A stretch of DNA of 64,000 bases from Polytrichum commune (lineage: Eukaryota; Streptophyta; Polytrichopsida; Polytrichales; Polytrichaceae): the NCBI GenBank assembly GCA_950295325.1, contig OX485806.1, positions 37,014,001-37,078,000 on the forward strand. Direction: 5' to 3'. Of the stretch, positions 1 through 53,874 are shown piece after piece (position 1 is the first letter of the stretch; each line of letters opens with the position of its first letter). Position numbers and translations under genes: made by a program. The notes under the pieces were generated by a model. The model was not told where the DNA came from, ran no database searches, and was given only the letters and a program-made list of their open reading frames with translations.

Positions 1-81
1 CACTAAACGGATGTACGAAGTTGGACATTTGCCAAACACCCAAGAAAATTGGAGAGACTTTCAACACATCGTTGTGATTTC

Positions 82-1605
82 TTACAAACTTGTGACAACT
101 ACGGGCAACTTGAAGAGACCATCCGTGGCCTTTATTTTGCGTGCATAACAAGGGCATGCGGTCTTGGCGTGGTCCATTTTATCATGGATGATTGTAAGAA
201 CCTCTGTCGGCCTCATTATAGATAGTGCACGGTTCTTATAGTAATCTTGGCGGTGTGCCTCTTGATTGTTCACATGCTCAATATATTATTTTTGGTGTCT
301 AGTATGGGATTCAGTACCAATGGGGTGGGCGTCTCGAAGACCTTTGTATTTCTCACACGCCGTACACCTAGCGGACTTGTCCCCAGGTCTCTTCAAAATG
401 TATTCAACAAACTGTTGGTTTTTAATCACACTCAACTTGGACAAAGAAATGGGCCCACATCCCGCTCTGCGACCTACTTCGTTGATGTCCGTTAAGATGT
501 TCTTCCATTTTGTGCCCGTGGGCAACACCATTTGAACAACTTTCTCCCCTGTTGACAATGTCCTCGTCTTGTGGGGCATTGCATTGGCCAATGGCACTAT
601 GATGGTGAAGAGTGTTGCTGAGGCTTGTAGTGTAGCCTCCCTAGGTTTCTTTGTGCCCGAGTTGCCATGAAATCGAGAGCAGCAACCCAACGATGAATAC
701 CTCCTAAACCTATAAAAGTCAGCCTTGGAGACAACATGGATGATATACCATGCCGTACAACACATTTCGACATTTTTAAGGGTCACCACCTTATGACCAT
801 GGGTATCAATGTGCAAATTTCTGTGGACCTCGAGTTTCTTTGTGGATCTCATACGAAAATCCGCAAGCCACATCTCTTCACGAAGTGACCTAATTTTTTC
901 ACATGGGAAGAATTGGCAACATTTTCTCGCGTAACAGTCCTTGGCGGACACGAGACGGATAGAATCGTCTCCCAATATGCAATCCCGTCGTCGCTCCTTA
1001 TCACCGCGAGGCACGCGGTTAGAAGCATATCTGCGGAGGCCTTTGCGAGGAGGTAATTTGGCCAACAAAGCTGATTTCGCTTGTTTGTGCCGCCGCCCAT
1101 GATCTCACAAGCTTACTTCTTCATGGAGAACGCGACGAAGGGACCATCGACGTAAGGAAAATCTCTACGTCACCGGAACCTCGAGTAGAAGCAAAGAATT
1201 CAAGATGCACATACCAACATCATCGGCACCGAGGGGGTTGGCATCCACACATTCACGGGGATCGGAGTTTCTACATATGCCATTTGCCACCGGGACACCA
1301 AGCTCGTTAAGTAGAACGACATTAAGGCCCACCCATTCCTCTCTTCCAAAACCCACACACAATGGAATGTCATCGTTGTCATCACCGGAATGTAGACATT
1401 GTTCGTGCCCTTCAAAAGAATCATGGAAAGATGCATCCACATGCACCCCCAGCACATTTGTCATGTCAGTACCGTCCGCCAACGTGAACGTTAGTTCGCA
1501 TTCACTATCGGAGGACGATGCACTAATCCACAACTCCAATGAAATATATCCCACATGCATCGCCATTGTTCCTAAACAAACAACCATGGCATGAACAACA
1601 ACCAT
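82..1605 (-). pseudogene. Decayed multicopy ORF with KMDH motif, probably mobile-element derived
   Basis: Read on the minus strand, two blocks look protein-like. Block one (1605-1165, about 146 aa) is acidic and ends at a stop next to a possible GT donor. Block two (about 1090-82) is basic and Cys-rich, running from LPPRKGLRRYAS through CTACEKYKGLRDAHP to IIHDKMDHAKTACPC. Block two carries an in-frame TAA at 286-288 and another at 82-84, beyond which homologous-looking residues continue with more stops, so the copy is not functional as a single ORF. The IIHDKMDH stretch resembles conserved cores of repetitive transposase-like proteins of lower plants. The Asp could be catalytic, but I cannot name the family. 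There are no terminal inverted repeats I can assign. The palindrome cluster at 1706-2599 lies directly upstream of its 5' end, as another does for the plus-strand gene at 6392. Confidence 0.5.
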
Positions 1606-1705
1606 CCCAATGTTTTAAAGAACGCACAAATTATTTGTCAAAATATATGGCCCAGAAATCACAAACAACTCTTGGGGCATCCATGGGAAGGCCTCACACA
1701 CAAAG

Positions 1706-2599
1706 ACGAACGCACGTTCGAAAACAATACGAAGACATGGAAAAACTGCATGGGATTCCCATGGCAATTGACACCGGCATCAAGTTATATATCATTCGTG
1801 AAGGGTGTCGATATGATTTGTTGTCCAACCATGGCAACATGTTTGCGGCGGTTATGTATATGAACGACTGTTCGTAAGTTTTTGGAAAAACAGTAGATGT
1901 AAAAAACACTTTGACACGTCGCCATTGTGATAACTCAGGATGTACGTTTTCTGAAGACATGCCACCCTCTGTCGGGGAAATGATAGGGTGTACCACATCG
2001 CGTCGTACCCTAGTAAATAATGGGACGGCATATTTACGAACGACCGTTCGTATCTCTCTGTCATACTTTGGTTATATGCATGAAGGTGTCTGTAAGTCTA
2101 GTGTTGGATGCGATGGACATACTCCCAGGTGGTATTTACGAACGAACGTTCGTGAATTGGGAGAATCTAATTTTATACGGTTCATCTGGACGTGTGGGAA
2201 ATACGAGACGTATGCCTAGACGTCAATGAATGATGTTGCTGCATGTCTGGACATAAATCTCAGGTCGTCCTTACGAACGCACGTTCGCAAGTTGTGGTGA
2301 ATCCTATATGCATTTGGAGAAAACGGGCACGAGGGAGAATTACAGACCCACATCTCTATGATCCTGGATGTCATATTTACGAACGCACGTTCGTATATCA
2401 CCGACATGTTCTCATTGCATATAACTATTTATATGCACAGTTCATATGACGACCCATATCTGTATATATATATATATCTCAGTCTCTGAACGCAGAGTGT
2501 GCTCATATATGGTACTAACGAACGCACGTTCGTGAACTACACATCATTTCTCTGACCCATTTATTTGCCATAACGTATGTTTTACGAACGCACGTTCGT
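1706..2599. repeat. Palindrome cluster A, eight copies of ACGAACGNNCGTTCGT
   Basis: Copies lie at 1706-1721, 1860-1875, 2036-2051, 2138-2153, 2273-2288, 2379-2394, 2518-2533 and 2584-2599. Five have both 7-bp arms perfect. Central dinucleotides are CA, AC, AC, AA, CA, CA, CA and CA. Flanks share little beyond a few T before and A after, which extends the symmetry. DNA between copies is unrelated and spaced 66-176 bp, so this is not a tandem repeat of a longer unit. The cluster lies just upstream of the minus-strand pseudogene start. Confidence 0.9.
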
Positions 2600-3112
2600 A
2601 AACCTCCGGTATTTACGGCGGTATATACGGAGTCTACAGTTTGTCATGTACCTAGGAGGTGTGGGGTTGGCGGACAGGACAATGGCTTCCGCGCGCTCCG
2701 TCGGGTCTGGAACGTACACAACGTCTGCCGCTGAAAAGAACTTTGCTGTGGGGGGAAGAGCTTTAAGTACTTCTCTACGGGGGTTCAAAATCCCTTGGAT
2801 GCTCTTTAAAAAGCGGATTCCCGCTGCCTACTTTGACCTACCAATATGATATTTCATGCATGCGCGATTATATAAATAACATTATGTAAGGAACATGTAT
2901 TGCATGCACGCAACATGATATTGAAAATATGTAAATCGGTCGCATACCTTAGGTGTCACCAAGGTGTCATGAATATAAATATATATATAATAGATACATA
3001 ATGTCAAAATATGATGCTGGTTAATACATAATATTAAATGATTTGCGACCAAGGTGTGAAGTCCAAGTTAATTGACAATGGAGACCTAATATATGTTATG
3101 AATGTATGTGAT

Positions 3113-3148
<36 letters not shown>

Positions 3149-3166
3149 CACTCACACACATACACA
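3113..3166. repeat. TG/TA/CA compound microsatellite
   Basis: An uninterrupted run of about 13 TA dinucleotides is flanked by TG repeats on the left and CA repeats on the right. The whole tract can therefore form a near-perfect hairpin. Confidence 0.85.
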
Positions 3167-3863
3167 ATAAGGTAAACTCGAGTAAAAACATGTTGTGGAG
3201 GCCCCTAAAATTATAGGGATGATCATATGATTCACATCGAAACATGCCCGTAATATGCTCACCAAGCGCGTGAAAACCATTAAAAAGTTGGGTTAATCCA
3301 CAATGAACTAATCATATCTAGATGTAAGTTAGGGCTTGATTCAAATGTAGCCATATGTGTCAAAATAATGCATTAAAATGGCATGTGTGGAAATGTTTAA
3401 TTAATTTGGAATGGTGAATTTGATAGAGTAATCATAAGAAATGAAACCATACTTACGACAAGTCACACTTACAATTATGTGTTTTACATCCTACGAGAAG
3501 TATGTGCATGCTCATAGCTGAAAGTGTTGATTTAAACTAAAGTCTTAAGACATGCATGTTATAATCATGAGATTAAGTTTGGATTGTGTGATCAAATAGC
3601 ACTCAACACTATTAAGGGGAGAGATGGAGCATTTCAACACTCACTTTTCACCCGAACCAAAGCTTTATCCGAACTCTATTAATTTTGAATCTCAAAATGT
3701 CAATTATTGGCATGATTCTCAATTATTATAGTTATTGGGAACCGAATAAAGCAATTTCCAATCCAACCAACATCGATAGACCACTTTGACATGCCCATAG
3801 ACCACAACATGGACACATATATTAAGAAAGGTTGGTAAGAAGAAAAAAAATGTAGGAATGCAA

Positions 3864-3896
3864 GGTTTAGGGTTTAGGGTTAGGGTTTAGGGTTTG
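3864..3896 (+). repeat. Interstitial telomere-like tract
   Basis: Four TTTAGGG/TTAGGG-type units in a row, the canonical plant telomere heptamer, followed about 25 and 60 bp later by degenerate single units (TTAGGG, TTTAGGG). It is too short to be a chromosome end. Confidence 0.8.
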
Positions 3897-4055
3897 TGAT
3901 GGCTGTGTATGTGGTTATAGGGCTTAGGGTTTGTGATAGTTGTGTATGTGGTTTTAGGGTTTGTGGTGTGGTTGTTAATACGTTACATTACACACACAAA
4001 CAATATTGACTCCTAAAAACCTTGTATCGCACTAACTAAACTTATGAAACTGACA

Positions 4056-4570
4056 GTTGATGGTAGCCGTTATCCACAATCTCAAATTGGTCCTTTATGA
4101 ATGTAATATTTATTTGAGAAACCATGGTTCAAATTGAAAGAAATCTCGTTTCTGAAAACTGTATAATTGAAAACGTCGTATAGACATCCTTAGGGGTGGA
4201 TTCTTCATTGAAAACCTATGATGTACATTTGATGCTAGCGAAATAATGACCAATATGGCTCATTGGTTAAATGCAATTACATCATTGTTAAAAATTAAAG
4301 TTCAATGCACTATACGATTGTTAGTTCAATTTGACACCTAATTAAATTAATTGACGTCCTATTGGAAATTAAATTAATTGACGTCCTCCACCTCTTGCAA
4401 GAAAACGAATAGCCCCTCTCAACAATGTCAAATTGGGTCCTTTATGTACTATGTAATATATATTTGAAGAACCATGGTTCAACTTGAAAGTTATCTCGTT
4501 CATGAAAACTCTATACTTCAGAACACCATATACACATCCTTGGGAGTGGATTCTTCATCGAAAACCCACT
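4056..4570 (+). repeat. Local direct duplication of about 150 bp
   Basis: The stretch near 4056-4205 recurs near 4420-4570. Both share 'tcaaattgg..tcctttatg', an ACCATGGTTCAA core, a run ending in TCTCGTT, and 'ggattcttcat.gaaaac' at the end. Divergence is considerable. Confidence 0.6.
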
Positions 4571-4869
4571 AAATGACATACATTGTGCAATACTCATTAA
4601 CTTAAAGTTCTTTTTGAAAATATGTTTACAAGGAATACAAATGTAAAGGTACTAATGGGATACGGCACACAAAATTCATGTCTTCATATTAAGCTCTTGA
4701 AGTTATTGTGATTAATGCTTCCATCCCATATTATACATATACATATGCTTTGTATTGCCTTCATTACTTCTACATCCATCTCCCTTCGCATTTTCCCCCC
4801 TCCCCCGATGTCCCCATCCTATCTCCTCCCATTTCCCCCATCACCCATCTCCACCCATCCCCGCACCCC

Positions 4870-5040
4870 TCCACATGCCACGTGGAACGACGCCAATGGA
4901 CCGTCGCCATTGGAACGACGCCACGTGGCAGCCATGGGGAAACCCTAGCGGCGGCGGCTACCACCCCGCGCCCCTTCTCTCTCCTCCTCATTGTCATTTG
5001 GAACCGAGAGAGGAGGAGCGGAGAGCTTAGCGTATTCGGA
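4870..5040 (+). promoter_or_regulatory. Candidate promoter/5' leader with two G-boxes and a telo-box
   Basis: Two CACGTG G-boxes (4879-4884 and 4922-4927) symmetrically flank an inverted CCAATGG/CCATTGG pair. A telo-box AAACCCTA lies at 4940-4947, followed by a GCGGCGG run and a CT-rich tract. These are common plant promoter or 5'-UTR signatures, and this GC island stands out from AT-rich surroundings. It lies 1.5 kb upstream of the ATG at 6392, which directly follows a splice acceptor, so it could start that transcript through a 5'-UTR intron. This is inference; no transcript evidence is available. Confidence 0.4.
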
Positions 5041-5672
5041 GCAAAGCTCTTGCAGATTTTAGAGCCTTCTTCCTTTTTGCATCAAGTTGTGTTTGAGAGT
5101 TGCATATTTTGCTTTAGAATTGACTGCTTGTGAGTAGAGAGCTTGAGGGTTGTAAGAATGTTAGTAGAGCTGAAGAGTTGCAATATTGGGGTTTGAAAGC
5201 TTGAAGCTTGAAGCTTGTAGCTGTACTAGAATAGGTGATAGGGTTTGTACATAAAGAGTGAGGGCTTGAAACTGTGATAAAGGAGTGAGTGGTGCAAGGG
5301 CGCATCTCAACAACCAACATTGTAGATTTGTGTGTAGTTTTGTGTTTTTTCAACAAGCCAGGAACAGTTTGGGTTTAGAACACTTCAATGTGAGTCGATC
5401 AATCCTTCTAAACTCACAACCCACATCCTGAATTGGTTCATTGTTGATTTCCATTTTTTTTGTTTGTATTATGAGCTTTGGCAGGTTTTGCATGCATTTT
5501 GAGCTTTGATATTCATTTTGAAGTTCAATTGTGTTCTGATTTACATTTTTTTCTTCAATTCAATCATTCTGGCGATGGGAAGAAGTATAGTCCACCGAAT
5601 ACGTATTCGTATATATACGAATATGTATATGTACGGACACTATGGGAAAAAATATCCAAATTAGCCACATTT

Positions 5673-6357
5673 ACGAACGATCGTTCGTAAATGCGAATAC
5701 ATAGTCTGGCAGCCAATTTTACGAACGCTTGTTCGTAAATACCCGCACCCAAAGCACTAGCCAAGCAATTTACGAACGATCGTTCATAAATGCCCTAAAC
5801 CCAAAGCTCAAATCCAGAACATAACGAACGCGCGTTCGTAAAATAAGCTGGAAAAACCAACATATACACCACCGTATCGTCATAATTAAAAATTAAAAAT
5901 TAAAACCAAATACCCAATCACATTGAAATATATTCAAACCAAATACACAATTACATAGAATATATTGAAATACGAATACCTACTTACGAACGCGCGTTCG
6001 TAAAAGAGTGCAATCTTCATTTAACCGACCAAAACATATTTATTTACGAACGATCATTCGTAATATATGATGAAAAGGTGCTGAATCAAATAGATGAATG
6101 ACTTATTTTATGCAACCAAACCCAACATGCAGATAGTAGTGTCGGGCCTGGTGTGTATCACTCACTCACGAACGTTCGTACTTACTATTATAAACATTTA
6201 TTTTATGGTGAAGATGGTATGAAATGTGAAAAACAACCCAGAAAACCACCTCCTTTACGAACGATCGTTCGTAAATATAATAAAAATATATTGCAACAAA
6301 TACATTCATAATGAGTAGTATCTTGGATTTGCATGTCATTTACAAACGCTCGTTCGT
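5673..6357. repeat. Palindrome cluster B, nine copies upstream of the plus-strand gene
   Basis: Copies lie at 5673-5688, 5721-5736, 5772-5787, 5824-5839, 5986-6001, 6046-6061, 6168-6179 (a 12-bp contracted form, ACGAACGTTCGT), 6257-6272 and 6342-6357. The first four are spaced 48, 51 and 52 bp. Central dinucleotides are AT, CT, AT, CG, CG, AT, none, AT and CT. Most variant bases are CpG-to-TpG or CpG-to-CpA changes. The last copy ends 34 bp before the acceptor AG at 6390-6391, so the cluster probably sits within a 5' intron. Confidence 0.9.
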
Positions 6358-6391
6358 AAACTCAATACTAAATGTTTATATTTTGTTGCAG

Positions 6392-6841
6392 ATGGCAAGA
6401 TCAAGCAGAAGCGCGATTGAGATGTTCGCGGTGCAAGTCGATCGCCTCCCACAGTCGGTGTCCGACGATAACGGCAACGACAACTTTGTCCCCAAGGATG
6501 ACTTCATGGGGGAGTGGACGGCACTGCCAGAGAAGACCGCAGACGGCCTCTTCTGCATGTGATTCACCTACGAGCTGGAGACAAGACCGGACCAGCCAGA
6601 ACAGTGGGTTCAAATGAAGACGTGGGAGATAGAGTCCATAGAGGCCCAGGGGGAGTATGTAATTCTAGACATGAAGAACAAGAAGGATCATATCAACCTC
6701 TTGTTAGATTACCAAAAACATACCTTCTCCTATCAATACGCCCAAATGAACGTAGTCGAAGATGCCAAGCACTTCGACCTGGACGGCCTCTTCTCCAAAT
6801 ATGCGTTGAGCCCATACTGGACGGCAAGGAAATTGACCGCC
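6392..6841 (+). pseudogene. Exon 1, N-terminal part (150 codons, one stop)
   Basis: Begins MARSSRSAIEMF immediately after a splice acceptor (TTGTTGCAG, ending 6391), so an upstream non-coding exon is likely. A TGA at 6560-6562 interrupts an otherwise continuous frame that resumes with FTYELETRPDQPEQW and runs to KYALSPYWTARKLTA at the LTR junction. A single C-to-T change of CGA would explain the stop. I recognise no domain. The composition is acidic and soluble, with no signal peptide or membrane segment. Confidence 0.65.
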
Positions 6842-8317
6842 TGTGAGGCCAAACCCACCACCCTTAAGCGTCCTAGTCCGGGTGATGGTTTTGAGAATCA
6901 CATTCACTTCATAACATCATAATGTGAATTGCTATGTGGCTCTCATGCCCAAGGTACTCACTTTATCTTAACTCAACTTGTTACATTATTTTGAATCTCT
7001 TGGCGTGTGGTGGAATTTGATTTCTCAAGGGTCCAACCCGCGGCCTTGGCCACGCATGCTCTTAAAGAGATTCCCCTAGCACCCTTGATCTTTACTTCCC
7101 TTGTATTGCCCTTGCCAGGATCCTCCACATTCTCCATTCGTTGCACACGTGATCTTATTTTGACAAAAAAGAGTGCAAGTGTTAAAAAAAACACTTTTCT
7201 CAATAGTCAATATTTGAACACAATCACTGGTGACACCACACATGACACTGCCTAACCTAATGAATCTAACACTTATCTATAAACCAATCTAATCTAAGAT
7301 AGTCTAATGTGTCTATGATTATTTTGGTAATGCCACCCACTTAAACTATGCCTTGGCTAATGAAACGAGCTCCCGGCTGCGGTTGTCTAATGCAGTCAGC
7401 CTCAGCTAATTAAACCAGATTCTTGAGCCTTCGTCTAACCGGTCCCAGCTGCAGTCCAGCAGCAGAGTCTCCCAGTCTCGGGGCCTTCGTCTAACTGGTC
7501 CCAGCTGCAGTCCAGCAGCAAAGTCTCTACCCAGTCTCGAGGCCTTCGTCTAACCGGTCCCAGCAGCAGAGTCTCACAGTCCAGGGGCCTTCGTCTAACC
7601 GGTCCCAGCTGCAGTCCAGCAGCAGAGTCTCCCAGTCCTGGGGCTTTTACTCAATCTTTTCTCTTTGTGCCTTAATCAATAAACTAATCTATTCCTATAA
7701 TGAACTAATCCCACCCACTAATTCCACTAAAGGGCTACCTAATCCCCACACATTGTCTCAAGCTCTAAGAGCTCACTCTACTTGAGAAGTATTGAGAGAG
7801 AGAGCTTAACTAATTAACTTCACTAAAACTAATAACCCACACACGTGGCTCAAGCTCTTAAGAGCTTGCTCCCTTGAGAGCGCTTGATGGAGAGAGAGGT
7901 AAATGAGAGAAAAAACACCTTAAGTAGCAAAGAGGGAGAGAGGGAGAGAGAGGTGAGGATAGGGTGAGAGGATTAGCACCTCCAATCACAATCCCTTAAC
8001 CTTCTCCTCCAAAGTAGGGACTAATCCCCATCCACCAAGCTTCCTTCTTCCTAAACTAACAAGGTGGATCCAAAAGTGGGCATTTAACCCGCGGAGCTCA
8101 CCTTGCTTCACCTTACCCCCTACTCACATTATCAAGGCATATTCTTATTGAAATCAAACCTTGAAATAATCACACAACACCACCTAATGCCTAAAGTTAA
8201 ATCCACACCACACTTCACTCTTTTTATGTTTTGTGAATAATCATAACACATCAAAGTCAAACTAAAATTGGTTTCGAAGAGTTAATCACCACATGTGGGC
8301 ACCATTTTGGGCTCACA
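6842..8317 (+). mobile_element. Solo LTR (TGTGAG...CTCACA family) inserted in exon 1
   Basis: The insert starts TGTGAGGCC and ends GGGCTCACA, and is flanked on both sides by CCGCC (6837-6841 and 8318-8322), a perfect 5-bp target duplication. Removing it restores the host reading frame. Length 1,476 bp. It contains a GC-rich minisatellite (about 7440-7650; units around CCCAGCTGCAGTCCAGCAGC) and CT/GA-rich tracts. Two relatives in opposite orientation occur at 47326-49602 and 59722-61049, with matching ends. TG...CA-type ends, a 5-bp duplication and no internal coding region fit a solo LTR left by LTR-LTR recombination. No parent element is in the window. Confidence 0.85.
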
Positions 8318-8322
8318 CCGCC

Positions 8323-9168
8323 CTTGTATTGAACATCTTCAAATACAACAGTGTGGTCACTGAGGCCAACAAGAAGAAGAAGAGCCCCAGGAAACCATCC
8401 ACATCAGGGGCAGGAGGATCTAGAAGTGCACCTAGGCCTGTGCCTTCCACGAGTAGGGCGACGGAGGGCCCCAGCAGACACTCCACGCCATCGAAGAGGA
8501 CAAGGGACGAGATGGAGAAATCAGGAGTAACAGACACCACGGAGGTGAGCTCGCCTCCCGTAATGCCTACCCCCTTGAAAAAGGGCGAGAACCCTGACGC
8601 TATGAAGGCCACAAGGATCCTTCGAGACTTCAACAACTACTCGAAGGATTGCTGGCCCATGGGACGCCACTTCACATTCAACGTAGACTGCTTCAAGTGC
8701 GAGATGTCCCCCAACAAATGGGTGGTTCGGTCTCGCGAGAGCGGTGGTGTGAAGTGGCAGATCAACAATCTCATGAACAATGTCAAGTGGGATAGGCAGA
8801 CCGTTTGCGTCATGCCCAAGGGGCTGACATCCCGTCCGACGGAGAAGGACTGGCCACGGATCCAGAATGGAGAGTTCTGGATCATAGACGGACAACACAG
8901 CTTGGAGGCGTCCCAGATAATCCTCAAGGACGACAACTTCCAGCATGAGCTGAAGGAAGACTTGCGCTACTGGAAGGCGTTCTTGGTGTGGTCGGACGAT
9001 TGGGACAAGCTGCGGAAGATTTCCACCTTCCTCAACTCCGGCAACAAGATCAAGGCCTTCGAGGCGTCGTGGGCAGTCAACATAGTGGCTGCAAGGGACG
9101 TCTGGGTCGCCCACGGGTGCCCCCCTAAGGAAAGGGAGAACGCCAAGACGCCATCTCCACAATGGAAG
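8323..9168 (+). pseudogene. Exon 1, C-terminal part: DGQHS (ParB/sulfiredoxin-like) domain
   Basis: Resumes LVLNIFKYNSVVTEANKKKK, then a Lys/Ser/Pro-rich linker with likely nuclear-localisation character (KKKKSPRK, KRTRDEME), then a folded region from about 8590. GEFWIIDGQHSLEASQ at about 8869-8916 matches the signature of DGQHR/ParB-sulfiredoxin-fold proteins, with Ser in place of the usual Arg. RYWKAFLVWSDDWDKLRKISTFLN follows, a second block I associate with the same plant family. The exon ends QWK before GTGAGC at 9169. Apparent starts inside the LTR end (MWAPFWAH) are artefacts of the insertion. The biochemical role of plant DGQHS proteins is unknown to me. Confidence 0.6.
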
Positions 9169-9289
9169 GTGAGCTTACGAACGAACGTTCGTAAATCTCT
9201 TTGACATTCAAATTTTCAAGTTCTTTGACATTCAAATTTACGAACGTGCGTTCATATTTTGTGCGTTACTGATGCCTTTCTTACTGCAG
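9169..9289 (+). other. Intron 1 (121 bp) with two palindromes
   Basis: GTGAGC...CTGCAG boundaries, phase 0. Palindromes at 9177-9192 (8 nt after the donor GT begins) and 9240-9255 (34 nt before the intron end). A 15-bp direct repeat (TTTGACATTCAAATT) lies between them. Confidence 0.8.
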
Positions 9290-10174
9290 GCATTCTGCGA
9301 CGCGATGGTGGACAAGTTCTCCTCCATCGACATGAAGTCTACAACAACCAAGTCTGTCCTGGAGCTCAAGGGTGAGCTCCGCCTCATCTGTTGCAACAGG
9401 GACACTTGGGAGTTGTGGACACAATTTTTTGATGCGCACATCTCGGGCGATCTGGTCAACCCCGACACCGAGGAGAAATACAACGCGGAGAAGACCGGGG
9501 AGGCCCCTCCACTATTGAGGGAGTTCTTTAGGTCCCTTCAAGGGTTAACAGAGTCCAAGTTGCAAAGGTGCGCGGTGCATCTTCTTGGGAACACAGTGGG
9601 AAGAACCATCCCATACCCCAAGATATTTTTGAAGAGGCCAAGACACAAGCCCGGGCCTCCCCGTTCGAGGCAGGGGAGAAAGGACATGCCCTTCTACAAC
9701 CCCTTCATGGCCAAGTTCAAGGAGCACAAGTCGCCGGACATGAGGGAGCCTCACGTTTGGCTGTGGATAGTGGAGCAGGAGAAGTTGTCTGTCGTCACCG
9801 ACCTGTACGAGAAGACGATCAAATTCGAGTACAACATCTTCCACAACACATACGTGCCCGCCAAGACGGAAGGGATCGTGGCCATCAACGAGGCCAGGGG
9901 AAACAAGCATGTGGGGGCGGTCATCCTCGTTTTCTTAACGTACAACGCGCTTCGGAATGGGCGAGCACCTGTCAAGGCGAATAGTACTTTCAAGAAGATC
10001 TACAGCATCCCACATCCCCCTCCCAAGGATCTGTTTCAGGAGACGTTGTACACCGTCTTCCCGGCGCTGGAACTCAGGTTGGAGTTCTACGTCTCCGTTT
10101 TGCAGAGCGTGGCAATAAGCGGAGAGACCGTGTACAACGTTTGTGGAGGCAGCAAGTTCATGTACGCTGCGATG
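9290..10174 (+). pseudogene. Exon 2: intact 295-codon frame, unknown domain
   Basis: Opens AFCDAMVDKFSSID and stays open to GGSKFMYAAM at the donor GTAAGC. Conserved-looking blocks include LICCNRDTWELWTQFFD, MPFYNPFMAKFKEHKSPDMR, PHVWLWIVEQEK and a C-terminal helix-rich part. I recognise no catalytic motif. It follows the DGQHS region directly in plant proteins of this kind, so it may be the second half of that fold. High GC and strong third-position G/C bias contrast with the AT-rich surroundings. Confidence 0.65.
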
Positions 10175-10315
10175 GTAAGCTCTCCAACTAATATTTACGA
10201 ACGCTCGTTCGTAAAGTTCACCTCAACTTGTGTTGGTTTTTGATTACATTGTTTCTCGTCGTTGATTTTTACGAACGTACGTTCGTATATTCTAACGTAT
10301 TTGCTTGGATCTCAG
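10175..10315 (+). other. Intron 2 (141 bp) with two palindromes
   Basis: GTAAGC...CTCAG boundaries, phase 0. Palindromes at 10197-10212 (arms perfect, centre CT) and 10271-10286 (arms perfect, centre TA). The second ends 29 nt before the intron end. Confidence 0.8.
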
Positions 10316-11314
10316 ATGCTTGGCCTGGTCGTCAACAGCTTCGTTGACGCCGTCGACGAGGAGGACTTCTAGGTGCACAGGGCGAAGGCGTCCACGATGG
10401 ACCTGGAGGACATGACCCTCCCAAGGACGGACATCAACATGCCCGTCGACGAGGGCATGCCCGCCATGGAGACGGATGACGACGAGCCCGCGCCCTCCTA
10501 CAACATCGAGGCGATTATCTAATCCTTGGACGTCACGCCTCTGCAAATTTTGGGGCCGTCGGGAAACCCATCCGACGTGCAGGGGACTCCGGGTGGATAC
10601 ACAGGGTCGTCCGTGGGGACAACCCAAGATGTCCTCCCCGCGCGAACGTCTGGGGCGGAGGCATTCGGCACTCCCGGGGGATGCTCGACATCGGTGTCGC
10701 CTAGGCCAGTCGTGGTTCCCAGAATGGAGAACCTCGATATTCTGGACCAACGCTCCCGCCCGTCGTTGGACCACTTCTGCAACACTAGGCGGAAGATGAA
10801 GAAGACCCCCTACGTGGAGTTGCCTCCGGGGGCAATCATCAAGGTCTCCGATGAGGACGAGGGAGATATGGAGATAATGGTCGAGCTGGGGGTCGACTTC
10901 GACAAGAACAAGCAGGTCAAAGAGGAGGCCCTCTCCGTTGCCGAGCTTAACGCCAAGCTCGAGCAAAAGATGAAGGAGGACATGGTGAAGGCTGCTGAGG
11001 AGAATGCGAAGAAGATGAGAGCAATTCAGGAGGAGCTAAGGCAATCCAACGAGAAGACGGACGCCATCCTTGCCATGCTCAACAAGATGCAGAGCTTCTC
11101 GGCGCCCCCCCCAGCCGGCTTATCCCTTCCCTGGAGGATACCCATCGCAATACCCCCCGCAGGGCCAGTACCCCCCGCAGGGCCATTTCCCAGGAGGACC
11201 ATCACACCAATCTGCGCCCCACCCTACGCCTGTTGGGATTCCTCCGCCCCCAGAAGTTCCCTCGACCACCTCCCACGATGCTGTCGCGGCGGCCATCCAG
11301 GAGGACGAAGATTT

Positions 11315-11330
11315 ACGAACGCGCATTCAT
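11315..11330. repeat. Exonic palindrome in exon 3
   Basis: ACGAACGCGCATTCAT, with two CpG-to-CpA changes in the right arm. It is nested in a wider inverted repeat, GAAGATT on the left and AATCTTC on the right. The sequence is translated as LRTRIH and the frame stays open. Confidence 0.8.
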
Positions 11331-11690
11331 GAATCTTCAGGTGCTGCAGTCCTCACCCCTCCCCCTTCAAGGGTAGGACAGCCCTCAGACACCGATACGT
11401 CCTTTTTCACCGTCATCCCCAGGGTAGTAGACAGACAGGGCGATGACTCTGCGCGACACACTGACATGGTCATTGTGGAGGACACGCAGGGGAGCCCCAA
11501 TGACGCACCAGGAGTGCAGGGGATGGACGTGGAAGAGACCCCGGCTGCGTGGATGGAGGATGTCCGGATGGACGCGCTCGACCTGGGCGCCAAGGAAGAG
11601 GACGCGCTGCGCATCCAGCAGACACATGCCTCTCAATCGGAGCGTGAGGCCGACGCCATGGAAACGGAGGCGGCTGCAGCTGCGGAGGTT

Positions 11691-11706
11691 ACGAACGCGC
11701 GTTCGT
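11691..11706. repeat. Exonic palindrome in exon 3, perfect arms
   Basis: ACGAACGCGCGTTCGT, a complete 16-bp palindrome translated as TNARS inside the acidic linker. Confidence 0.85.
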
Positions 11707-11768
11707 TAATCGTTGAGGAGGGACCTGTTGCTCAGTCCAGCACCGCTGCCCCTCCCCTCGATGACAAG

Positions 11769-12342
11769 GTAAATCTCCTCTGAGAATACCATTTTTTGCG
11801 AACGCGTGTTCGTAACCTCACTAACATCGCGATGTTTTTCTCTTCATCGACATCCCCTGGCCCACGCGAGCCCTCTTCATCGACCCCCCTTATGGACGAC
11901 CAGTTTTGTAGGACACGGCATCATTTTGCCTTAGGAAAATGTGATAGACTATCACGTGAGAAATGTAAATATTCAATGGATTAATATATGGGCTTATGTT
12001 ATCTGCATCGCATTGCTTCAAATTCTGTGCCCTCAACCCCTTCTCGTATATTGTGGATGTTGATGCGATTATGTTGATTCTTGCATAACCACCTCAGTCG
12101 CGAACGCTCGTTCGTGAAAGGGTGCGACCCCCTGTCCACCTCCTAGACGAACGACCGCTCGTAAATGCACCGCCCCCGCAGCCTTCATTCACGAACGGTC
12201 GTTCGCAAGTGTGCCCTTGTGCACATTTTCCTTGCACTCTCCTCACTTCCTCGTCTTTTCCCATAATGCATCGTCTTCATTTTCTACGCAAAAATTTCAT
12301 TATTGGATCATAGCATTAAACTAGTCGCGTTGTTCATCACAG
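11769..12342 (+). other. Intron 3 (574 bp) with four palindromes
   Basis: GTAAAT...TCACAG boundaries, phase 0 by the frames on either side. Palindromes at 11798-11813, 12100-12115, 12147-12162 and 12191-12206; three have outer-base or T-to-C variants. A stretch at about 11840-11910 has coding-like composition and could be a cassette exon, but I see no convincing acceptor. Confidence 0.65.
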
Positions 12343-13110
12343 GACCCCCCGGAGATAGGTCGCAACCCCTCGACCAGTGGACCTCACACCCAGAACAATC
12401 CTTTCATCGTTTTTGACCTCAACGGGGTCTTGTGTCACACCCAACACATCCCCAGGGTCCCCACGCGTCCCTTCCGTCACCTCGACGAAAGGGACTACGA
12501 CAGCAAGCTCAACACCATAATTAACCGCAAGGCTGTCCGCGCCCGTCCCGGCTTGTGTGACTTCCTTCGAGAGGTGGTCGAGTTCGCTCACGTCATTGTG
12601 TGGAGCTCCATGGTCATGGAGAACACGGATCCCATCGTCCACTTCTTGTTCCGCGATCTCCCGAGCCCTTGCCTCGTCCTCGGCCAAGAGGACTGCGACG
12701 AGCTGCTCGACGAGAAAGGTCAACCGGTGCCCAAGTTTGGCGGTCGAGGCAGAGGACAACAGTTCCTCAAGGTCCTCCGGTCTAGACTCTGGCGAGGCGT
12801 CCCCCGTCTGCAAGGGACGCCCCACGGGTGGTGGCCGACTCCTGAGAACACCGTCCTCATCGACGACAGCCCCACCAAGAGCGTCTTGAACCCCCCGGGC
12901 AACGTCATCTTCCCGGACACTTGGACCGGCGATAGGAACAACACATTTTTGGTCGATAGGCTAGCCCCATACCTCAGAAGGCTCGTGCTCCATGCCGGTA
13001 GCATCCCATTTTTTGTTAGGTCCAACCCCTTCGGCAATGCGGCACTTAGCCCCCGCGATAATGTATATAAGAGCATCATTAGGCTCGCGAAAGTCAATAA
13101 ATTGATTTGA
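12343..13110 (+). pseudogene. Exon 4: FCP1/NLI-like HAD phosphatase domain
   Basis: The 255-codon frame is intact. PFIVFDLNGVLCHT carries HAD motif I with the nucleophile Asp at 12415-12417. The second motif position, Asp in active FCP1/SCP enzymes (DxDxT/V), is Asn here. VIVWSSMV is motif II and VLIDDSPTKS is the acidic motif with the FCP1-type DDSP. The C-terminus (NPFGNAAL) resembles plant FCP1-like proteins. Family members dephosphorylate the RNA polymerase II CTD in the nucleus; the Asn suggests weak or altered activity. The exon could function alone only with an alternative promoter. An AATAAA overlaps the end. Confidence 0.75.
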
Positions 13111-13209
13111 AATGCCTCCATGTCTTTGCTTGTTATCATGTGGTTCACATATCTAATGCTTGCTCCGTTTTTGGATGTCTTTTGTTGTTGTTCTTGTTCT
13201 TGCCCATAG

Positions 13210-14195
13210 CCTGCCCCCATATGCGACGCCCCTGGAGTCGACGGCCCTTCCTGTCCCCTCTCGCCCCCTGCCTCCCCTTCCCGCGACGTCACGGACTTCC
13301 AAATGCCATCCCTCTACCAGTTCTCGGCGGTGGACGCGGCCTCGGCCGTGGATTACTCCCGCGACGTCGGCATCGACGACGGCGTCGTCAACAGCCCGCC
13401 CCCCGCACTTGTCGCCCGCACCTACGCCCCGTCACCCTCCCCCCTCTCCAAGGAGAAACGGACGCTCGTTCGTTTGGGGCACCTCTTGCCCTCGAAGGAC
13501 GCCGCCGTCGCTCGTCGCGGGCCGAGCCGGCGTCTCCGCATGGAAGGCCCCTGTTGCCACACCTCCCCCGCCGACTCCCTTCCTCCCCCCGCAACGTCCT
13601 CCGCGATCGTGGGCCCTCCACGCCTCGACTCCCCCGCACCATTCAACAGTGCAATAGTTCCATCGGCTCCGGATGCTGCCGTCGACGCCCCGCTCGTGCC
13701 CACTGTCCCCCGCATGGACGTCCCCAAAGCCAAGGTGCCCTCTTCAACCCTAAACCCCTTTCCCGCTTTTGCTTTCCTTGTCTTGCGTGTGCGTGCCGTT
13801 ATCTTTACGAGCGCCCACCCCAAACCGCTCTCATTATTTTCCCCACTCCATTCTTATTCTTACCTTCCTATGACGTTGTTTCGCAGGTGGCTACCCGCTC
13901 GCTTGGTGCCCGACCCTCCTCCACGTCCTCCTTGGATAGGCACGCCCTCAAGGCCGTGTCATCCGAGTCCGATCGTTGTTTGGCTCTCCGCCGTAGCGCA
14001 AGACATTCCCTCTCGCAAACGCACTTGTATTCCACTCACAATACCACTCCGTACAATTCGGGAGCGTGTCCGGAAATTTGGAAGAATGACACGTATTCCG
14101 GGTCCGTCAACAAAAACGGTTATAGCCGCGGGCCTGAGATTTTCAAAGCCATGGAGGCTGCCAAAAACAAGGCCAAGGCCGCGAAAAAAAATTAG
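13210..14195 (+). CDS. Two-exon Pro/Ser/Ala-rich ORF with Lys-rich tail, unknown
   Basis: Exons 13210-13734 and 13887-14195 join in phase 0 (CAAAGCCAAG|GTGCCC ... TTTCGCAG|GTGGCT). The first has a good polypyrimidine tract and AG before 13210 and contains MPSLYQFSAVDAASAVDY from an internal ATG at 13303. The second runs CPEIWKNDTYSGSVNKNG to KNKAKAAKKN and TAG. The open frame before the ATG and the acceptor suggest a further upstream exon, perhaps an alternative 3' part of the preceding gene. A degenerate palindrome (13458-13473) is translated within it. No domain is recognised; low-complexity composition lowers confidence. Confidence 0.4.
13458..13473. repeat. Degenerate exonic palindrome, last in the window
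   Basis: ACGGACGCTCGTTCGT, one mismatch to the consensus. It is the rightmost copy found; I see none from here to 64 kb. Confidence 0.7.
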
Positions 14196-16247
14196 TAGGA
14201 CGGATGAGTGGGAATAGAAGCGTACTAGTGGGACGGACTCCCCAAGTGCGCTTAGGTGTAGAACATATTAGTGCTTACTTTCTATCTATTTCAAGTTACT
14301 CAAGACATTGATGGTATTTCCATTATATTTGTATTTCAATCCTATTGAATTCAAACAATTTCCAATCATTCCCCGCATATTTCCCTCCATTCATAACGAT
14401 TTCTCATTTCATACGCAACTATTTTCATGTATGCTTCATATTTTTGTTCACTTTGATGCCTTTATATCTAATAATTGTATCCAAAATTATACATATTTGA
14501 CTTTTAGGTTGTCATTTCTGGTCCAAATTTGAAAAGTGCGTCCTTAAATAGTCTCATAATCAACAAAAAGTCTCCAATTACCGAATATAGTGTTATGTTT
14601 TGTAAGCGCACAATACATTAGGAGATCTCCATATGCACATGATGATGTCCTCCCATTTTGAAAAGGTGTTTGTGCATCAAGAGCACTCCTGGTAGACATG
14701 ATGGTGTCCTCACTCTTTATGAATGTATTAGGCACCGGGAGGTCTCTTGGTGCACATGATAGTGTCATGTTTTGAAAGCGCAATTTGCATTGGAACACCT
14801 CCCAATTGCAATGCAATTCCTTGTGTTCAAATGAGTAACCTCAACTCTCTTCTAGTCTTAGAAGTGTAAACTACAATTGACAACAACGTTTCATGACACT
14901 TGAAGTATCAAAGAGTGCCTTCCTTTTCTTCTAGGCTTAAACAACACTTTCAGGACTTGGGGAGCTGTGTTTGAAGGATAGGTGAATGGACAAGGAATGG
15001 AGCTTGCAGGAATGTCGAAACAATCACATCTTACTAAGTCGGATGTCAACAAAATTCAAGGCTTGCCAAACGATATGCTTGAGGAGATTGGACACTTAAT
15101 CCTTAATTAGGAAGAAAGTTTGTTGTAAAGTTGTGGTAGAAGGCGTGACTTCACTTGTATCGCTCACTGACATGTGCGACATCTAGAAAATGAACTCGTT
15201 ATCATAGCTCTCTAGCCGCTTGGCACCTTTCTGCCTAATAGTTAAGTAGAGTGTAAAAGCAAGTTAGGCGGCTCAAAAAATAATATTCTAAAATTGGGCA
15301 TATTTAAAAAACAATTTACAATAAGTTAGACATTCATCCAAGTCATTTCTATAATTTATGGATGGTTTTCCTAATTTCATCCAAGGCAGCTACGATTAAC
15401 CTAAACACTTCCCTTATCCAATTCATGCTTGTATTGTTTTTAGACCATGAGTGAGATTGATGCCGCGTGAAGACATTGTTGAAGTTATTTGATGTTATTT
15501 TGTTGGATTCCAGTGAATGTCACTTGCATAATTGTGATTTTAGGAATTATATGGATGTTATTCCTTTTTTTGGACACTCAACAAAATTAATTTCCCATCA
15601 ATTTAGGCACCTTTAGAACTAATTATTTATGCCCAAGTTGCTAGAGAGCTACGATATAAGGCATGAGATCATGACAATGTTGGGTTGTGAGTGTTCGGAA
15701 AAACAAATAAATTATATGACTTAAACCTACAACATCTAGTACAAAACATAGCTCTTTCGATCACTCTGCTTCGACACGGATCTTTTTGTGTCGAAATCTA
15801 TGCTCTTTTGGACCAATGTTGGAGCTATTTGGTCATTTGGGCCACCACTAATGTTGTGTTATTAATCTTTTATATTATAATCACATTCTTGTGGGCCATG
15901 GAACCGTATTGCTATTTTGTTAGCCATGCAAAAGGTCCATGAAGTTTTTCTAACACTTTCTGGCTATTTACTAGATATAGATTCCATTCAAGCTTACTCA
16001 AATATTTAGATCCCATGTACATTATTGAATGTATAATTTAAAGGAACTTGTTTTTCTTCTTTGTTTAATTTGGGCATCTTCTTATAGTGATCTATTTCCC
16101 CTCCTTCAAATTGTTATATTTTTGGCTACTCATTCAAGCTTACATATTAGATTCCATGTTTATTATTGAATATCCATGACGGAATGTTCTATCTTTATTT
16201 AGTTCTAGAGATTTTATAGATCTAGATGTGAGTCACCTTCCTAAGTA
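14196..16247. other. Intergenic, no gene seen
   Basis: AT-rich. A degenerate tandem of about three units of 70-80 bp, recognisable by 'cacatgatgatgtcct', 'gacatgatggtgtcct' and 'cacatgatagtgtca', lies at about 14594-14816. Nothing else is supportable. Confidence 0.5.
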
Positions 16248-19378: not shown

Positions 19379-20581
19379 CTAGGATGAGCCCGTCTTATGC
19401 AAAGGAGAACACGTATCAACCATGTTTGGCAAATCACTTGCAAACATGAAATACGATTTGTTCATATTCTCAACCACTCCAAAACCTTTGTTACAGGTAT
19501 TTACTTCTCGAGGAGCTTCGTCCACAACTTCAAGTGATGGATATTTCTTCAAGGTCATGATATCTTTGGAATTTGGTTGAATGTCAATTTGTGTTACAAG
19601 AGGAATCATTTTGCAATCTTCGTTGACCAAAGCACATGTTGGCATTGCCCTTGCTTGAGCATTAGGTTCGCCCAAGAAAATTGTATGAGTGCTCAAAGGC
19701 ATGGATGGGGACGCTGAAACATCAAATGAGTTGTCTATTGCATTTCTTTGATTACTTGGCATGATACACCGCATGGTGGAGTTTGAGACGTGCTTACTAG
19801 AGTCCTCAAAATTGAGAGTTGTTTTCTTTTTGTATCGAATGACGGCAACGTCATATGCTCGAGCAGCTTCCTCTGGAGTGTCAAAGTTACCAATCCACAT
19901 CTTCTTGTTGGTCTTCTTTTCAGAGATCTTGATTTCAGCAACCCAAGGATGTTTGCGTTCCGGACGCCAACGTACGCCTTTGTAGCGTGGGATGACTGCA
20001 CCTATAAGTTGCTCCAATTCTCGAGTCATTGTTCGTGTCATTGTCCTTTCCAACCTCCAAGCTCTTCCACATTTTGGAACAAAAAATTGTGTTGCACGAA
20101 GATCATAGCATTCAATTACTATTGAAAATTTTGTATGCCCTTCATGTTCACGAAATAACGAAGAAACATGATTTACTGCAATTTTTGACATTCTTTTATT
20201 ATAGTCTAAAAATGCAAGTATGGATTGGGAGGGCTTTGTACCAAAAGATTGTATTGAGAATTCCAAAAAACCACATTGATTCAATGTACTAGAATCCAAT
20301 ACTAGACGATGTTGTGGTGTTGTTGTTGGATTCGTGATATTATAATACGGTGGCGCACTTGGATTTGACAAATATGAGATTGAAACTCCCGACTCATTGA
20401 CACTCTTTGTGTGTAAATCTATACATTGGTGAAACAAATGAGAAATAGATGTTGCAATTTTTTGTGGAAACAAATAAATACTACCTTTTATACAATAATC
20501 ATCCCATTGAGCATGTACCTCAAACTTGTAAGAACCATTTTCAAGTGTTGAATATTGACATGTTGCTTTGGTGAACTTCAT
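19379..20581 (-). CDS. AP2/ERF-type protein, paralog 1
   Basis: 400 aa with one AP2 domain at about residues 200-258: YKGVRWRPERKHPWVAEIK (three-stranded sheet, DNA contacts), then MWIGNFDTPEEAARAYDVA (helix), ending TTLNFED. AP2 proteins are nuclear sequence-specific DNA-binding regulators. The 199-residue N-terminus (MKFTKATCQYSTLENG..., NPSAPPYYNITNPTTTPQH, ECYDLRATQFFVPKCGRAWRLERT) is unlike any AP2 partner I know and is conserved in all three paralogs. So is the C-terminal NKSYFMFASDLP block, which argues for selection on the whole protein. The ATG lies about 30 bp after an acceptor-like TTTGTAG, so an upstream exon is possible. The frame is intact. Confidence 0.88.
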   Translation of the reverse strand: MKFTKATCQYSTLENGSYKFEVHAQWDDYCIKGSIYLFPQKIATSISHLFHQCIDLHTKSVNESGVSISYLSNPSAPPYYNITNPTTTPQHRLVLDSSTLNQCGFLEFSIQSFGTKPSQSILAFLDYNKRMSKIAVNHVSSLFREHEGHTKFSIVIECYDLRATQFFVPKCGRAWRLERTMTRTMTRELEQLIGAVIPRYKGVRWRPERKHPWVAEIKISEKKTNKKMWIGNFDTPEEAARAYDVAVIRYKKKTTLNFEDSSKHVSNSTMRCIMPSNQRNAIDNSFDVSASPSMPLSTHTIFLGEPNAQARAMPTCALVNEDCKMIPLVTQIDIQPNSKDIMTLKKYPSLEVVDEAPREVNTCNKGFGVVENMNKSYFMFASDLPNMVDTCSPLHKTGSS

Positions 20582-21525
20582 GACGTCCTTTAACTTGTTG
20601 CTTTCAATACTAGCCTACAAACTCAAGCAAAACTATAAAGTTGTATGTATATCATGCACGATTGCAATTGCTATATGTCGGTTGCAAACTAAGAGATACA
20701 ATGTGCTTTAATGGCGCTTTCTAAAACCAACATCATAGTATGTTCAATGTGGACATTGAAATCATGAGATCCATAGGTCTCATATCTCACATAGATACAT
20801 ACTAAGTTGAATTTGTACAACACAATCCAACCCATGAGAATGAGATATTCAACAACAATTGTGTTGAGCTATGAAAAATAACACGTCAAGGATATTAGGC
20901 GCTCAAAGTGTGTTGGATATTAAACGTTTAGAAAATTCCAAGCAAGGAAATAGATACGTTGGAAAATAGCGAGGAATTGAACACTAACAAATATGCAAGG
21001 CACTTGAACATCACCAAAGTTCTAGTCCCAAGCAAAGGATGCAAATTTTGAAAGAGCGCCTTGAAATCCTCTCATAACATTGTGCTAGTTGAAGGTTTGA
21101 TACTTTGCATGAGCCGATTCAATGATTGAGAAGCTTCTTTCCAAGCCGCCCTACATGTTGGTGTTCTTATTCACTTTAAGGTACACTTTGAGGTGCACCC
21201 CTAAAATGCATTGACTACATTGACTAGCCTTTTATTCAAGTGTCAAACTTCGTGCGTTGAAATTTGAAAGTGGATCGTTTAGTCAACCTTGATGATTATT
21301 TGGAAGAAGCATGGCCGAGGAATGGGGAACAATGACATCGAAGTCCAAGTCAACAAAGTGACATGACAAAATAAATTGTGATCAAACACCCAAAAAAAAA
21401 AATAATGCCAAAACAAGGTCCAAAATTCCTACTAAGAACTTTGAAACATTAGTGACATTGGCTTTGTTTTTAGTAACATGATGAAAACAATTGACTTTGT
21501 GGCTTGTTACTTTAGTTGAGCACTC
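20582..21525 (-). promoter_or_regulatory. Conserved upstream region of AP2 gene 1
   Basis: The stretch upstream of the ATG is similar to 30262-31290 and 39898-40470, and partly to 63658-64000. It includes the acceptor-like TTTGTAGGCTAGTATTGAAA and 'gttggatattaaacgttta'. Its preservation may reflect shared promoter/5'-intron function or only shared duplication history. Confidence 0.5.
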
Positions 21526-29136: not shown

Positions 29137-30261
29137 CTAGGATGAGCCCATCTTTTGCAGAGGACAATATGTATCATCCATGCTCGGCAAATCACTTGCA
29201 AACATGAAATATGATTTGTTTCCATTCTCAACCACTCCAAAACCTTTGTTGCAGGTACTTACTTCTCGAGGAGCTTCGTCCATAGCTTCAACTGGTGGAT
29301 ATTTCTTCAAGGTCATTGGCATTGCCCTTTCTTGAGCATAAGGTTTCCCCAAGGAAACTGTATGAGTGCTCAAAGGCATGGACAAAGACGTTGAAATACC
29401 AAATGAGTTGCCTATTTCATTTCTTTGATCACTTGTCATGACAAACCACATGGTGGAGTTTGAGACGTGCTTACTAGAGTCCTCAAAATTGAGAGTTGTT
29501 TTCTTTCTGTATCGAATGACGGCAACGTCAAATGCTTGAGCAGCTTCCTCTGGAGTGTCAAAGTTACCAATCCACATCTTCTTTTTGGTCTTCTTTTCGG
29601 AGATCTTGATTTCAGCAACCCAAGGATGTTTGCGTTCCGGACGCCAACGTACGCCTTTGTAGCGTGGGATGACTACACCTATAAGTTGCTCCAATTCTCG
29701 AGTCATTGTTCGTGTCATTGTCCTTTCCAACCTCCAAGCTCTTCCACATTTCGGAAGAAAAAATTGTGTTGCACGAAGATCATAGCATTCAACTACTTTC
29801 AAAAGATGTGTAGGCTCTCTTTGTTCAAGCAACAAAGAAGAAATAGTATTTATTGGAGTCTTTGACAATACTTTAGTATACTCAAAAAATGCAAGTATGG
29901 ATTGGGAGGGCTCTGTACCAAAAGATTGTATTGAGAATTCCAAAAAACCACGTTCACTCAATGTACTAGAATCCATTACCATACAATGTTGCGGTGTTGT
30001 TGTTGGATTCGTGATATTATAATATGGTGGCGCACTTGGATTTGACAAATATGAGATTGAAACTCCCGACTCATTGATAGTCTTTGTGTGCGAATCCATG
30101 CACTGTTGAAGCACTTTGGGAGAAAAAGATGATACAATGTTTTGTGGACACCAAATAGAACTACTTTTGATCAAATAATCATCCCATTGACCATGTACCT
30201 CATACTTGTGAGAACCATTTTCAAGTGTGGAATATTGACATGTTGCTTTGGTGAACTTCAT
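29137..30261 (-). CDS. AP2/ERF-type protein, paralog 2
   Basis: 374 aa, intact, with the full AP2 domain (YKGVRWRPER through MWIGNFDTPEEAAQAFDVA). Relative to paralog 1 it lacks about 28 residues between the AP2 domain and the C-terminal block, joining ERAMP to MTLKKYPP. The deleted part holds CALVNEDCKM and IDIQPNSKD in paralog 1. The N-terminal module and NKSYFMFASDLP are retained. It lies in the same orientation as its paralogs, about 9.7 kb from each, with the same acceptor-like TAG upstream of the ATG. Likely a nuclear DNA-binding regulator. Confidence 0.87.
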   Translation of the reverse strand: MKFTKATCQYSTLENGSHKYEVHGQWDDYLIKSSSIWCPQNIVSSFSPKVLQQCMDSHTKTINESGVSISYLSNPSAPPYYNITNPTTTPQHCMVMDSSTLSERGFLEFSIQSFGTEPSQSILAFFEYTKVLSKTPINTISSLLLEQREPTHLLKVVECYDLRATQFFLPKCGRAWRLERTMTRTMTRELEQLIGVVIPRYKGVRWRPERKHPWVAEIKISEKKTKKKMWIGNFDTPEEAAQAFDVAVIRYRKKTTLNFEDSSKHVSNSTMWFVMTSDQRNEIGNSFGISTSLSMPLSTHTVSLGKPYAQERAMPMTLKKYPPVEAMDEAPREVSTCNKGFGVVENGNKSYFMFASDLPSMDDTYCPLQKMGSS

Positions 30262-39897: not shown

Positions 39898-40482
39898 GAA
39901 GTCCTTTAACTTGTTACTTTCAATACTAGCCTACAAACTCAAGCAAAGCTACAAAGTTGTATGCATATCATGCACGATTGCAATTGCTATATGTCGGTTG
40001 CACACTAAGAGATACTTCCTTAATGGCGCTTTCTAAAACCAACATCATGGTATGCTCACAGTGGACATTGAAATTACGAGATCCATAGCTCTCATATATT
40101 TTTATTTTGTCTCACCTTCTCTTGACAAAGACTCACATCAATGCATACAAAGTTGAATATGTACAACACAGTCCAACCCATGACAATGAGATATTGAAGA
40201 CCAAGTATGTTGAGGTAAGAAACATAAAACCTCAAGGATATTAGATGCTCAAAGTGTGTTGGGATATTAAACGTTTAGAAAATTGCAAGCAAGGAAATAG
40301 ATTCTTTGGACAATAGCGAGGAATTGAAGACTAACAACTATGCAAGGCACTTGAACATCACCAAACTTCTTGTCCAAGCAGAGAATGCAAATTTTGAAAG
40401 AGCGCCTTGAATCCACTTGTCCTATTTCTAGTCCTATTTGAAGGATTCATGCATTGATGGAGAAGCTTCTTTCCAAGCCACC
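39898..40482 (-). promoter_or_regulatory. Upstream region of AP2 gene 3
   Basis: Closely matches 30262-30830 upstream of paralog 2, more so than paralog 1, including 'ctcaaggatattagatgctc'. Units 2 and 3 are therefore probably the more recent duplicates. It is interrupted after 40482 by a family I MITE. Confidence 0.55.
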
Positions 40483-53759: not shown

Positions 53760-53874
53760 TGTGTGAGAACCTTGAATTAATTCCAAAGTTTAAAATCAAA
53801 TTCTAAATTTTTTCGAGGGCTTTGTAGCCCTCATGGTACATTAAGTGAGTGGGAGCTTGCATTTGAGTTGCAAA

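Follow-up and report, generated by a model that had tools for sequence, protein, structure and literature searches.

Lineage-specific palindromes as probable self-recognition sites of a terminal-inverted-repeat transposon family in Polytrichum commune

Transposons of the CACTA (En/Spm) type carry subterminal sites for TnpA and generate a 3-bp target duplication, and bacterial parS sites are 16-bp palindromes. Both invite comparison with the locus considered here, a 64,000-nucleotide stretch of the Polytrichum commune genome (contig OX485806.1, positions 37,014,001 to 37,078,000; the whole stretch is hereafter called the window), in which a terminal-inverted-repeat (TIR) transposon carries 28 copies of a short palindrome. 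The closest worked-out case is VANC acting on VANDAL. The VANC motif is short, was gained as tandem repeats and is found mainly in non-coding DNA, namely introns, intergenic stretches and the terminal parts; it differs between VANDAL families, and VANC action leads to loss of methylation (PMC5735166). In VANDAL21 and VANDAL6, which are Mutator-like elements of Arabidopsis, it is the 9-base, non-palindromic, same-orientation YAGTATTAY (PMC5735166). Two further reports are relevant here: Sola2 comprises TIR elements with a 4-bp target duplication and reported TIRs of 12-21 bp (PMC3627910), and motifs of the DGQHR type belong to the ParB/sulfiredoxin fold (PMC4619093). In the one open-access library searched we found no paper on either the palindrome string or DUF7869, the domain family of a second gene of the element.

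The original prediction had described 28 palindromes confined to positions 1706-13473 of a pseudogene neighbourhood. Their number and confinement were borne out: at ≤2 mismatches to ACGAACGNNCGTTCGT the scan returned 29 rows, which reduce to 28 sites once the overlapping row at 6164 is removed, all within that span, 13 of them perfect and one (6168) a shortened 12-bp palindrome counted among the 28. At ≤3 mismatches the window holds 33 matches, against a shuffle mean of 0.89 and a maximum of 4 in 100 shuffles. What did change is the unit to which they belong, which is not a pseudogene neighbourhood but a whole transposon, because all 28 lie inside one TIR element at C4:37,012,058-37,028,594 (window -1942 to 14,594), with a length of 16,537 bp that includes an insert of ~1.5 kb missing from copy E (see below). 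Of the outcome originally named as refuting, that the motif is the end of a known larger repeat, half holds: it sits in a larger repeat, but it is internal and dispersed. The inverted terminal repeat AACACTATATTCG(T/G)TAAT(C/T)GGAGACTTT is found at both ends of the window copy and of copy A, which are the only copies whose two ends are both known and in which target duplications were assessed; if AACACTA is taken as the terminus, the window copy is bordered by the 4-bp direct duplication ATGT/ATGT and copy A by CATA/CATA. Elsewhere in the window, at 59448 on the minus strand, 21 of 25 bases of the terminal-repeat pattern occur, and a related element may end there.

As the original prediction had it, the palindromes occur in upstream DNA, introns and exons, with 25 of the 28 in non-coding DNA and three in inferred exons (11315, 11691 and 13458). 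The claim that their flanks are unrelated did not hold, since the sites are T-rich on the 5' side and A-rich on the 3' side, and the palindrome extends to a full site of approximately (A)TTTACGAACGNNCGTTCGTAAA(T). The 28 window sites contain 19 mismatches; C>T or G>A changes at CpG make up ten of these, as would be expected if this dead copy has been methylated.

The element carries two divergent genes. The left one matches Pfam PF25273 (DUF7869) with E=6.6e-39 in the window copy (L020:8456-10000) and 1.8e-38 in copy C. To its right, on the plus strand, lies a gene that we call the DGQHS gene, which in the window copy is interrupted by the insert and by stop codons. As read in copy E, the exons of this gene appear to join in phase at GT-AG borders, including exon 3 to exon 4; exon 1 encodes a domain with the DGQHS motif at its end, exon 2 encodes 442 aa with no Pfam family above cut-off, and exon 3 gives a coiled-coil-type match (HAUS-augmin3, E=2e-4) that is below cut-off. 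With an FCP1-like phosphatase domain encoded by its fourth exon, the candidate DGQHS/FCP1-like protein has a domain make-up that is apparently undescribed. The DGQHS exon produced weak matches to DUF6551 (in 4 of the 24 members scanned, with E=0.012 at best), DUF1015 and GmrSD_N, none of them significant, and no member among the 24 matched a ParB or DndB family at E<=1. The viral contigs searched gave no lead. No TnpD-type transposase domain was found at E<=1 among 11 open reading frames (ORFs) scanned, nor did Pfam return any Mutator family for the scanned ORFs.

The window's own genome (407.8 Mb in 64 contigs) was searched for further copies, which are referred to as A-E (five stretches of C1) and F (a copy on C3), whereas W denotes the window copy plus 10 kb to its left. 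The exact palindrome, hereafter that of lineage 1, occurs 5,602 times genome-wide versus four times for the reversed control. The first exact matches listed (C1:640,647-2,466,125) are all within stretches A-E, and every one of the stretches A to D can be aligned with E. The DGQHS exon (8266-9171) has at least 130 genomic copies at ≥90% identity (130 scored of 1,827 first-look candidates), and because many of these retain an open 511-aa frame, the family has probably been active recently. Copy F is itself interrupted, with identical 208-bp stretches 9.3 kb apart around the interruption (L052 433-640 and 9762-9969); the same interruption is also present at the end of stretch A, and it is probably a young long-terminal-repeat retrotransposon inserted into the element.

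Palindromes occupy homologous places across the element copies, the same introns hold them, and in copies A, C and E many of them stand in groups at regular spacing. Their architecture is rigid: over seven stretches, all 132 exact arm pairs are separated by a 2-bp spacer, and no exact pair was seen at spacers of 0-1 or 3-12 bp (0-12 examined) or in outward order, while 58 of the 322 half-sites lack an exact partner. When diverged copies are compared, the arms change far less than the flanks and the spacer changes as much as the flanks or more; expressed as the fraction changed in core, spacer and flank with gaps excluded, the values are 0.026, 0.214 and 0.211 for E-B, 0.046, 0.357 and 0.210 for W-B, and 0.039, 0.375 and 0.232 for C-B. 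This is not a general property of CpG, which in the E-B comparison changed at 0.018 of core positions versus 0.234 of flank positions, so that flank CpG is not conserved.

The palindrome itself has been replaced in sister lineages. Distant homologues of the DGQHS exon on metagenome contigs share 33-45% identity (alignment A1), and some of their frames extend into the next intron, where the translated tail reports on the DNA that it reads through. A regular expression for the lineage-1 palindrome fits twelve of the 15 lineage-1 tails; among the exceptions, P0003 and P0006 stop inside the palindrome and P0001 departs from it by a single residue. Three of the six tails in the lineage-2 group (P0028, P0032 and P0035) encode a different palindrome, TTGGGTCGNNCGACCCAA, and of the five lineage-3 tails that of P0018 encodes ACGGCCGNNCGGCCGT; judged by eye up to a stop, P0019 encodes the same and P0022 ACGGACGNNCGTCCGT. 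Among exon-2 homologues (54 proteins listed, of which 52 were analysed), the lineage-1 pattern is present in 16 of the 28 with at least 61% identity; the other 24 include ACGGCCG in P0064 and P0071, an ACGGACG-only pattern in P0069, P0073 and P0093, and the lineage-2 pattern in P0089. A pattern compatible with both lineage 1 and ACGGACG is found in P0065, P0068, P0069 and P0093, an ambiguity that arises because one reading frame of each yields identical residues.

Two of the tail predictions were counted genome-wide, with one locus examined for each. The predicted lineage-2 palindrome TTGGGTCGNNCGACCCAA occurs 10,011 times versus 0 for its control. At the P0029-like locus L054 there are 11 lineage-2 sites at ≤3 mismatches (six perfect, ten at ≤1), upstream of the DGQHS exon and just within the intron that follows it; lineage-1 sites are absent at ≤3 mismatches and, conversely, W and E contain no lineage-2 site at ≤3 mismatches. 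P0029 has at least 94 genomic copies (94 scored of 1,155 candidates). Another P0029-like exon (C1:2118768-2120105, minus strand) is followed by exact lineage-2 sites just beyond its end and 1.6 kb and 2.9-3.3 kb downstream, offsets close to those of the intron sites in copy E of lineage 1, at 1.5 and 3.1-3.5 kb. Near the expected right end of a lineage-2 copy the terminal repeat is kept at 24 of 27 bases; therefore, the ends stayed and the internal palindrome was replaced. The second prediction, ACGGACGNNCGTCCGT, was counted 1,394 times versus once for the control. Locus L056 (C1:27957300-27959900), picked from the listed ACGGACGNNCGTCCGT positions, has a DGQHS exon with 75-79% identity to P0018, P0019 and P0022 and 42% to lineage-1 P0001; five ACGGACGNNCGTCCGT sites lie upstream of this exon and one just after it, and neither lineage-2 nor ACGGCCG sites were found there at ≤1 mismatch. 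The ACGG palindromes ACGGCCGNNCGGCCGT and ACGGACGNNCGTCCGT have no exact occurrence in 55 loci other than L056. The presence in a single genome of three lineages that differ in palindrome would, if the self-recognition reading discussed below is right, constitute a natural specificity series.

Two observations concern lineage-2 palindromes outside these loci. At C1:616090-617356 the lineage-2 palindrome recurs with a 78-bp period in a satellite-like array. Within the window, positions 35720-35890 hold three decayed palindromes of the lineage-2 type with 2-3 mismatches, mostly CpG to TpG/CpA (shuffle mean 0.12; none of 100 shuffles reached three), perhaps the rotted remnant of a sister element; BLAST of these sites versus L054 and L055 returned two matches of 24 bp, both confined to the surroundings of the palindrome, and so lends the remnant no further support.

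What kind of factor would use sites of this form? A rigid symmetric site with conserved arms and a free spacer, its concentration in one element and its replacement lineage by lineage argue for a dimeric protein, encoded by the element and specific for the element's DNA, and suggest that the recognition protein encoded by any one transposon family is restricted to the DNA of that family. We favour, with moderate confidence, the reading that the palindromes are self-recognition sites of the TIR transposon family, bound by an element-encoded dimer, most likely for anti-silencing or activation. The protein would bind as a symmetric dimer, with one subunit on each half-site of ~10 nt (TTTACGAACG) around the fixed 2-bp centre; binding at the upstream clusters and in the introns would mark the whole element as self, and the bound element would most likely be kept unsilenced, or its genes switched on, in the manner of VANC and VANDAL. 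Protein and site would then have changed in concert, giving rise to at least three lineages that differ in their palindromes. The likeliest candidate for the binder, as far as sequence can tell, is the product of the DGQHS/FCP1-like gene or a partner of it, because diverged versions of this gene accompany the diverged palindromes.

Several points weigh against this reading. Three of the 28 palindromes are exonic, and L056 holds one lineage-1-like site with a single mismatch. The contrast between core and flank is weaker in closer pairs of copies (0.038 vs 0.076 for E-W, 0.042 vs 0.067 for F-W, 0.046 vs 0.094 for C-W and 0.015 vs 0.048 for E-C); with gaps scored as changes the contrast is small in C-W and disappears in both E-W and F-W, a loss of which gapped sites are, by the site list, one cause. 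Furthermore, that the DGQHS gene diverges with the motif is no proof that its product is the binder, and the DGQHS exon has no significant profile match in Pfam or NCBIfam, nor did a sequence search of PDB provide a lead.

The likeness to VANC and VANDAL lies in a short motif that is specific to the element, mostly non-coding here, grouped at regular intervals in copies A, C and E, and separate for each sister family. The differences are that the palindromes are two-armed and rigid, and that they sit in an element with a DUF7869 left gene, CACTA-like ends and 4-bp duplications, without a known VANC homologue and with no Mutator family in the scanned ORFs. If the self-recognition reading is true, sequence-specific self-recognition with rapidly replaced motifs would be a general transposon strategy rather than a peculiarity of Arabidopsis VANDAL, and the present element would have arrived at it with another transposase-like gene and another site architecture. 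A bolder version, which we regard as doubtful, is that a non-Mutator transposon independently evolved anti-silencing in which a ParB-fold-like DGQHS protein with its FCP1-type phosphatase would load on CpG palindromes, spread and codiverge with the motif, thereby insulating the lineages.

The main rival to anti-silencing or activation, less probable in our view yet a serious possibility, is that the palindromes serve transposition itself, bound by the transposase or an accessory protein to bring about synapsis, much as the subterminal sites of CACTA serve its ends, and spread inward by local duplication. Sites that are element-specific, dimeric in form and grouped would suit this role, as would the CACTA-like ends; on the other hand, the outermost sites of the window copy lie ~3.6 kb (left) and ~1.1 kb (right) inside the element's termini, most are central, introns retain them in diverged copies, and the terminal repeat stayed similar though the palindrome was replaced. 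The element does share with CACTA its CACTA-containing termini (the AACACTATATTCG ends) and, as predicted here, internal sites for an element-specific protein. It differs in that its sites are internal and intronic, and the 4-bp target duplications speak against CACTA, the CACTA-like ends notwithstanding; together with the missing TnpD domain in the ORFs scanned, these duplications (in both copies) led us to reject a canonical CACTA element. As a TIR element with a 4-bp duplication it resembles Sola2.

It is unlikely that the palindromes are sites for a host transcription factor exploited for expression of the element. Clusters directly upstream of gene starts would agree with this idea, whereas the presence of different palindromes in three lineages of one genome, and the location of every motif among the matches listed within element copies, would not; a host promoter motif was rejected on account of the lineage-wise replacement. 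Less likely still are parS-like sites on which the DGQHS protein, as a ParB-type clamp, would load in order to partition or organise the element. The 16-bp palindromic form recalls parS, and the weak matches to DUF6551, DUF1015 and GmrSD_N point the same way, as does the DGQH motif, which is assigned to the ParB/sulfiredoxin fold (PMC4619093) and likens the gene to ParB-parS, DndB/DGQHR and GmrS; by contrast, no ParB or DndB match is significant, the motif here reads H-S instead of H-R and belongs to a eukaryotic transposon with an in-phase FCP1-like phosphatase exon, and an integrated transposon has no need of partition. Between the two readings offered originally, a family-specific binding site is the one that gains from the 2-bp spacing, the conservation of arms over flanks and the motif replacement, whereas mobile mini-palindromes inserting singly, despite irregular spacing and hits in both exons and introns, can practically be dismissed given homologous positions in diverged copies, regularly spaced groups that bring their surroundings along and a shared TTTA/TAAA extension. 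A plain satellite was rejected, since diverged copies conserve single intron sites.

Table 1. Coordinates of the element's features (window positions unless stated otherwise)
Feature	Position	Strand	Remarks
Left element end	-1942 = L020:8058 = C4:37012058		outside window
Left gene, DUF7869 (transposase-like)	1..1614, on to about -1490 (L020:8453-10000)	-	several frames
Palindrome cluster 1	1706..2599		between the two divergent genes; 8 sites: 1706, 1860, 2036, 2138, 2273, 2379, 2518, 2584
Palindrome cluster 2	5673..6357		directly upstream of DGQHS gene; 9 sites: 5673, 5721, 5772, 5824, 5986, 6046, 6168 (shortened), 6257, 6342
DGQHS gene exon 1	6396..9171	+	stop codon and ~1.5-kb insert (about 6842-8316) here
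Intron 1 palindromes	9177..9255		2 sites: 9177, 9240
DGQHS gene exon 2	9290..10174	+	shorter than in copy E; borders inferred from GT-AG and phase
Intron 2 palindromes	10197..10286		2 sites: 10197, 10271
DGQHS gene exon 3	10316..11768	+	internal stop codon in window copy
Exon 3 coding palindromes			2 sites: 11315, 11691
Intron 3 palindromes	11798..12206		4 sites: 11798, 12100, 12147, 12191
DGQHS gene exon 4	12343..13110	+	FCP1/NIF-like phosphatase domain, PF03031 E=2.2e-15, 57.2 bits, cut-off 21.8
Last palindrome	13458..13473		inferred downstream exon
Right inverted terminal repeat	14566..14594		4-bp target duplication ATGT directly after

Beyond the element, the window contains three similar ORFs in a row on the minus strand (19379-20614, 29137-30294 and 38704-39930; 385-411 aa), which appear to be AP2/ERF-like, and a 1,364-aa open frame at 53845-57939 that is presumably a Copia-type polyprotein.

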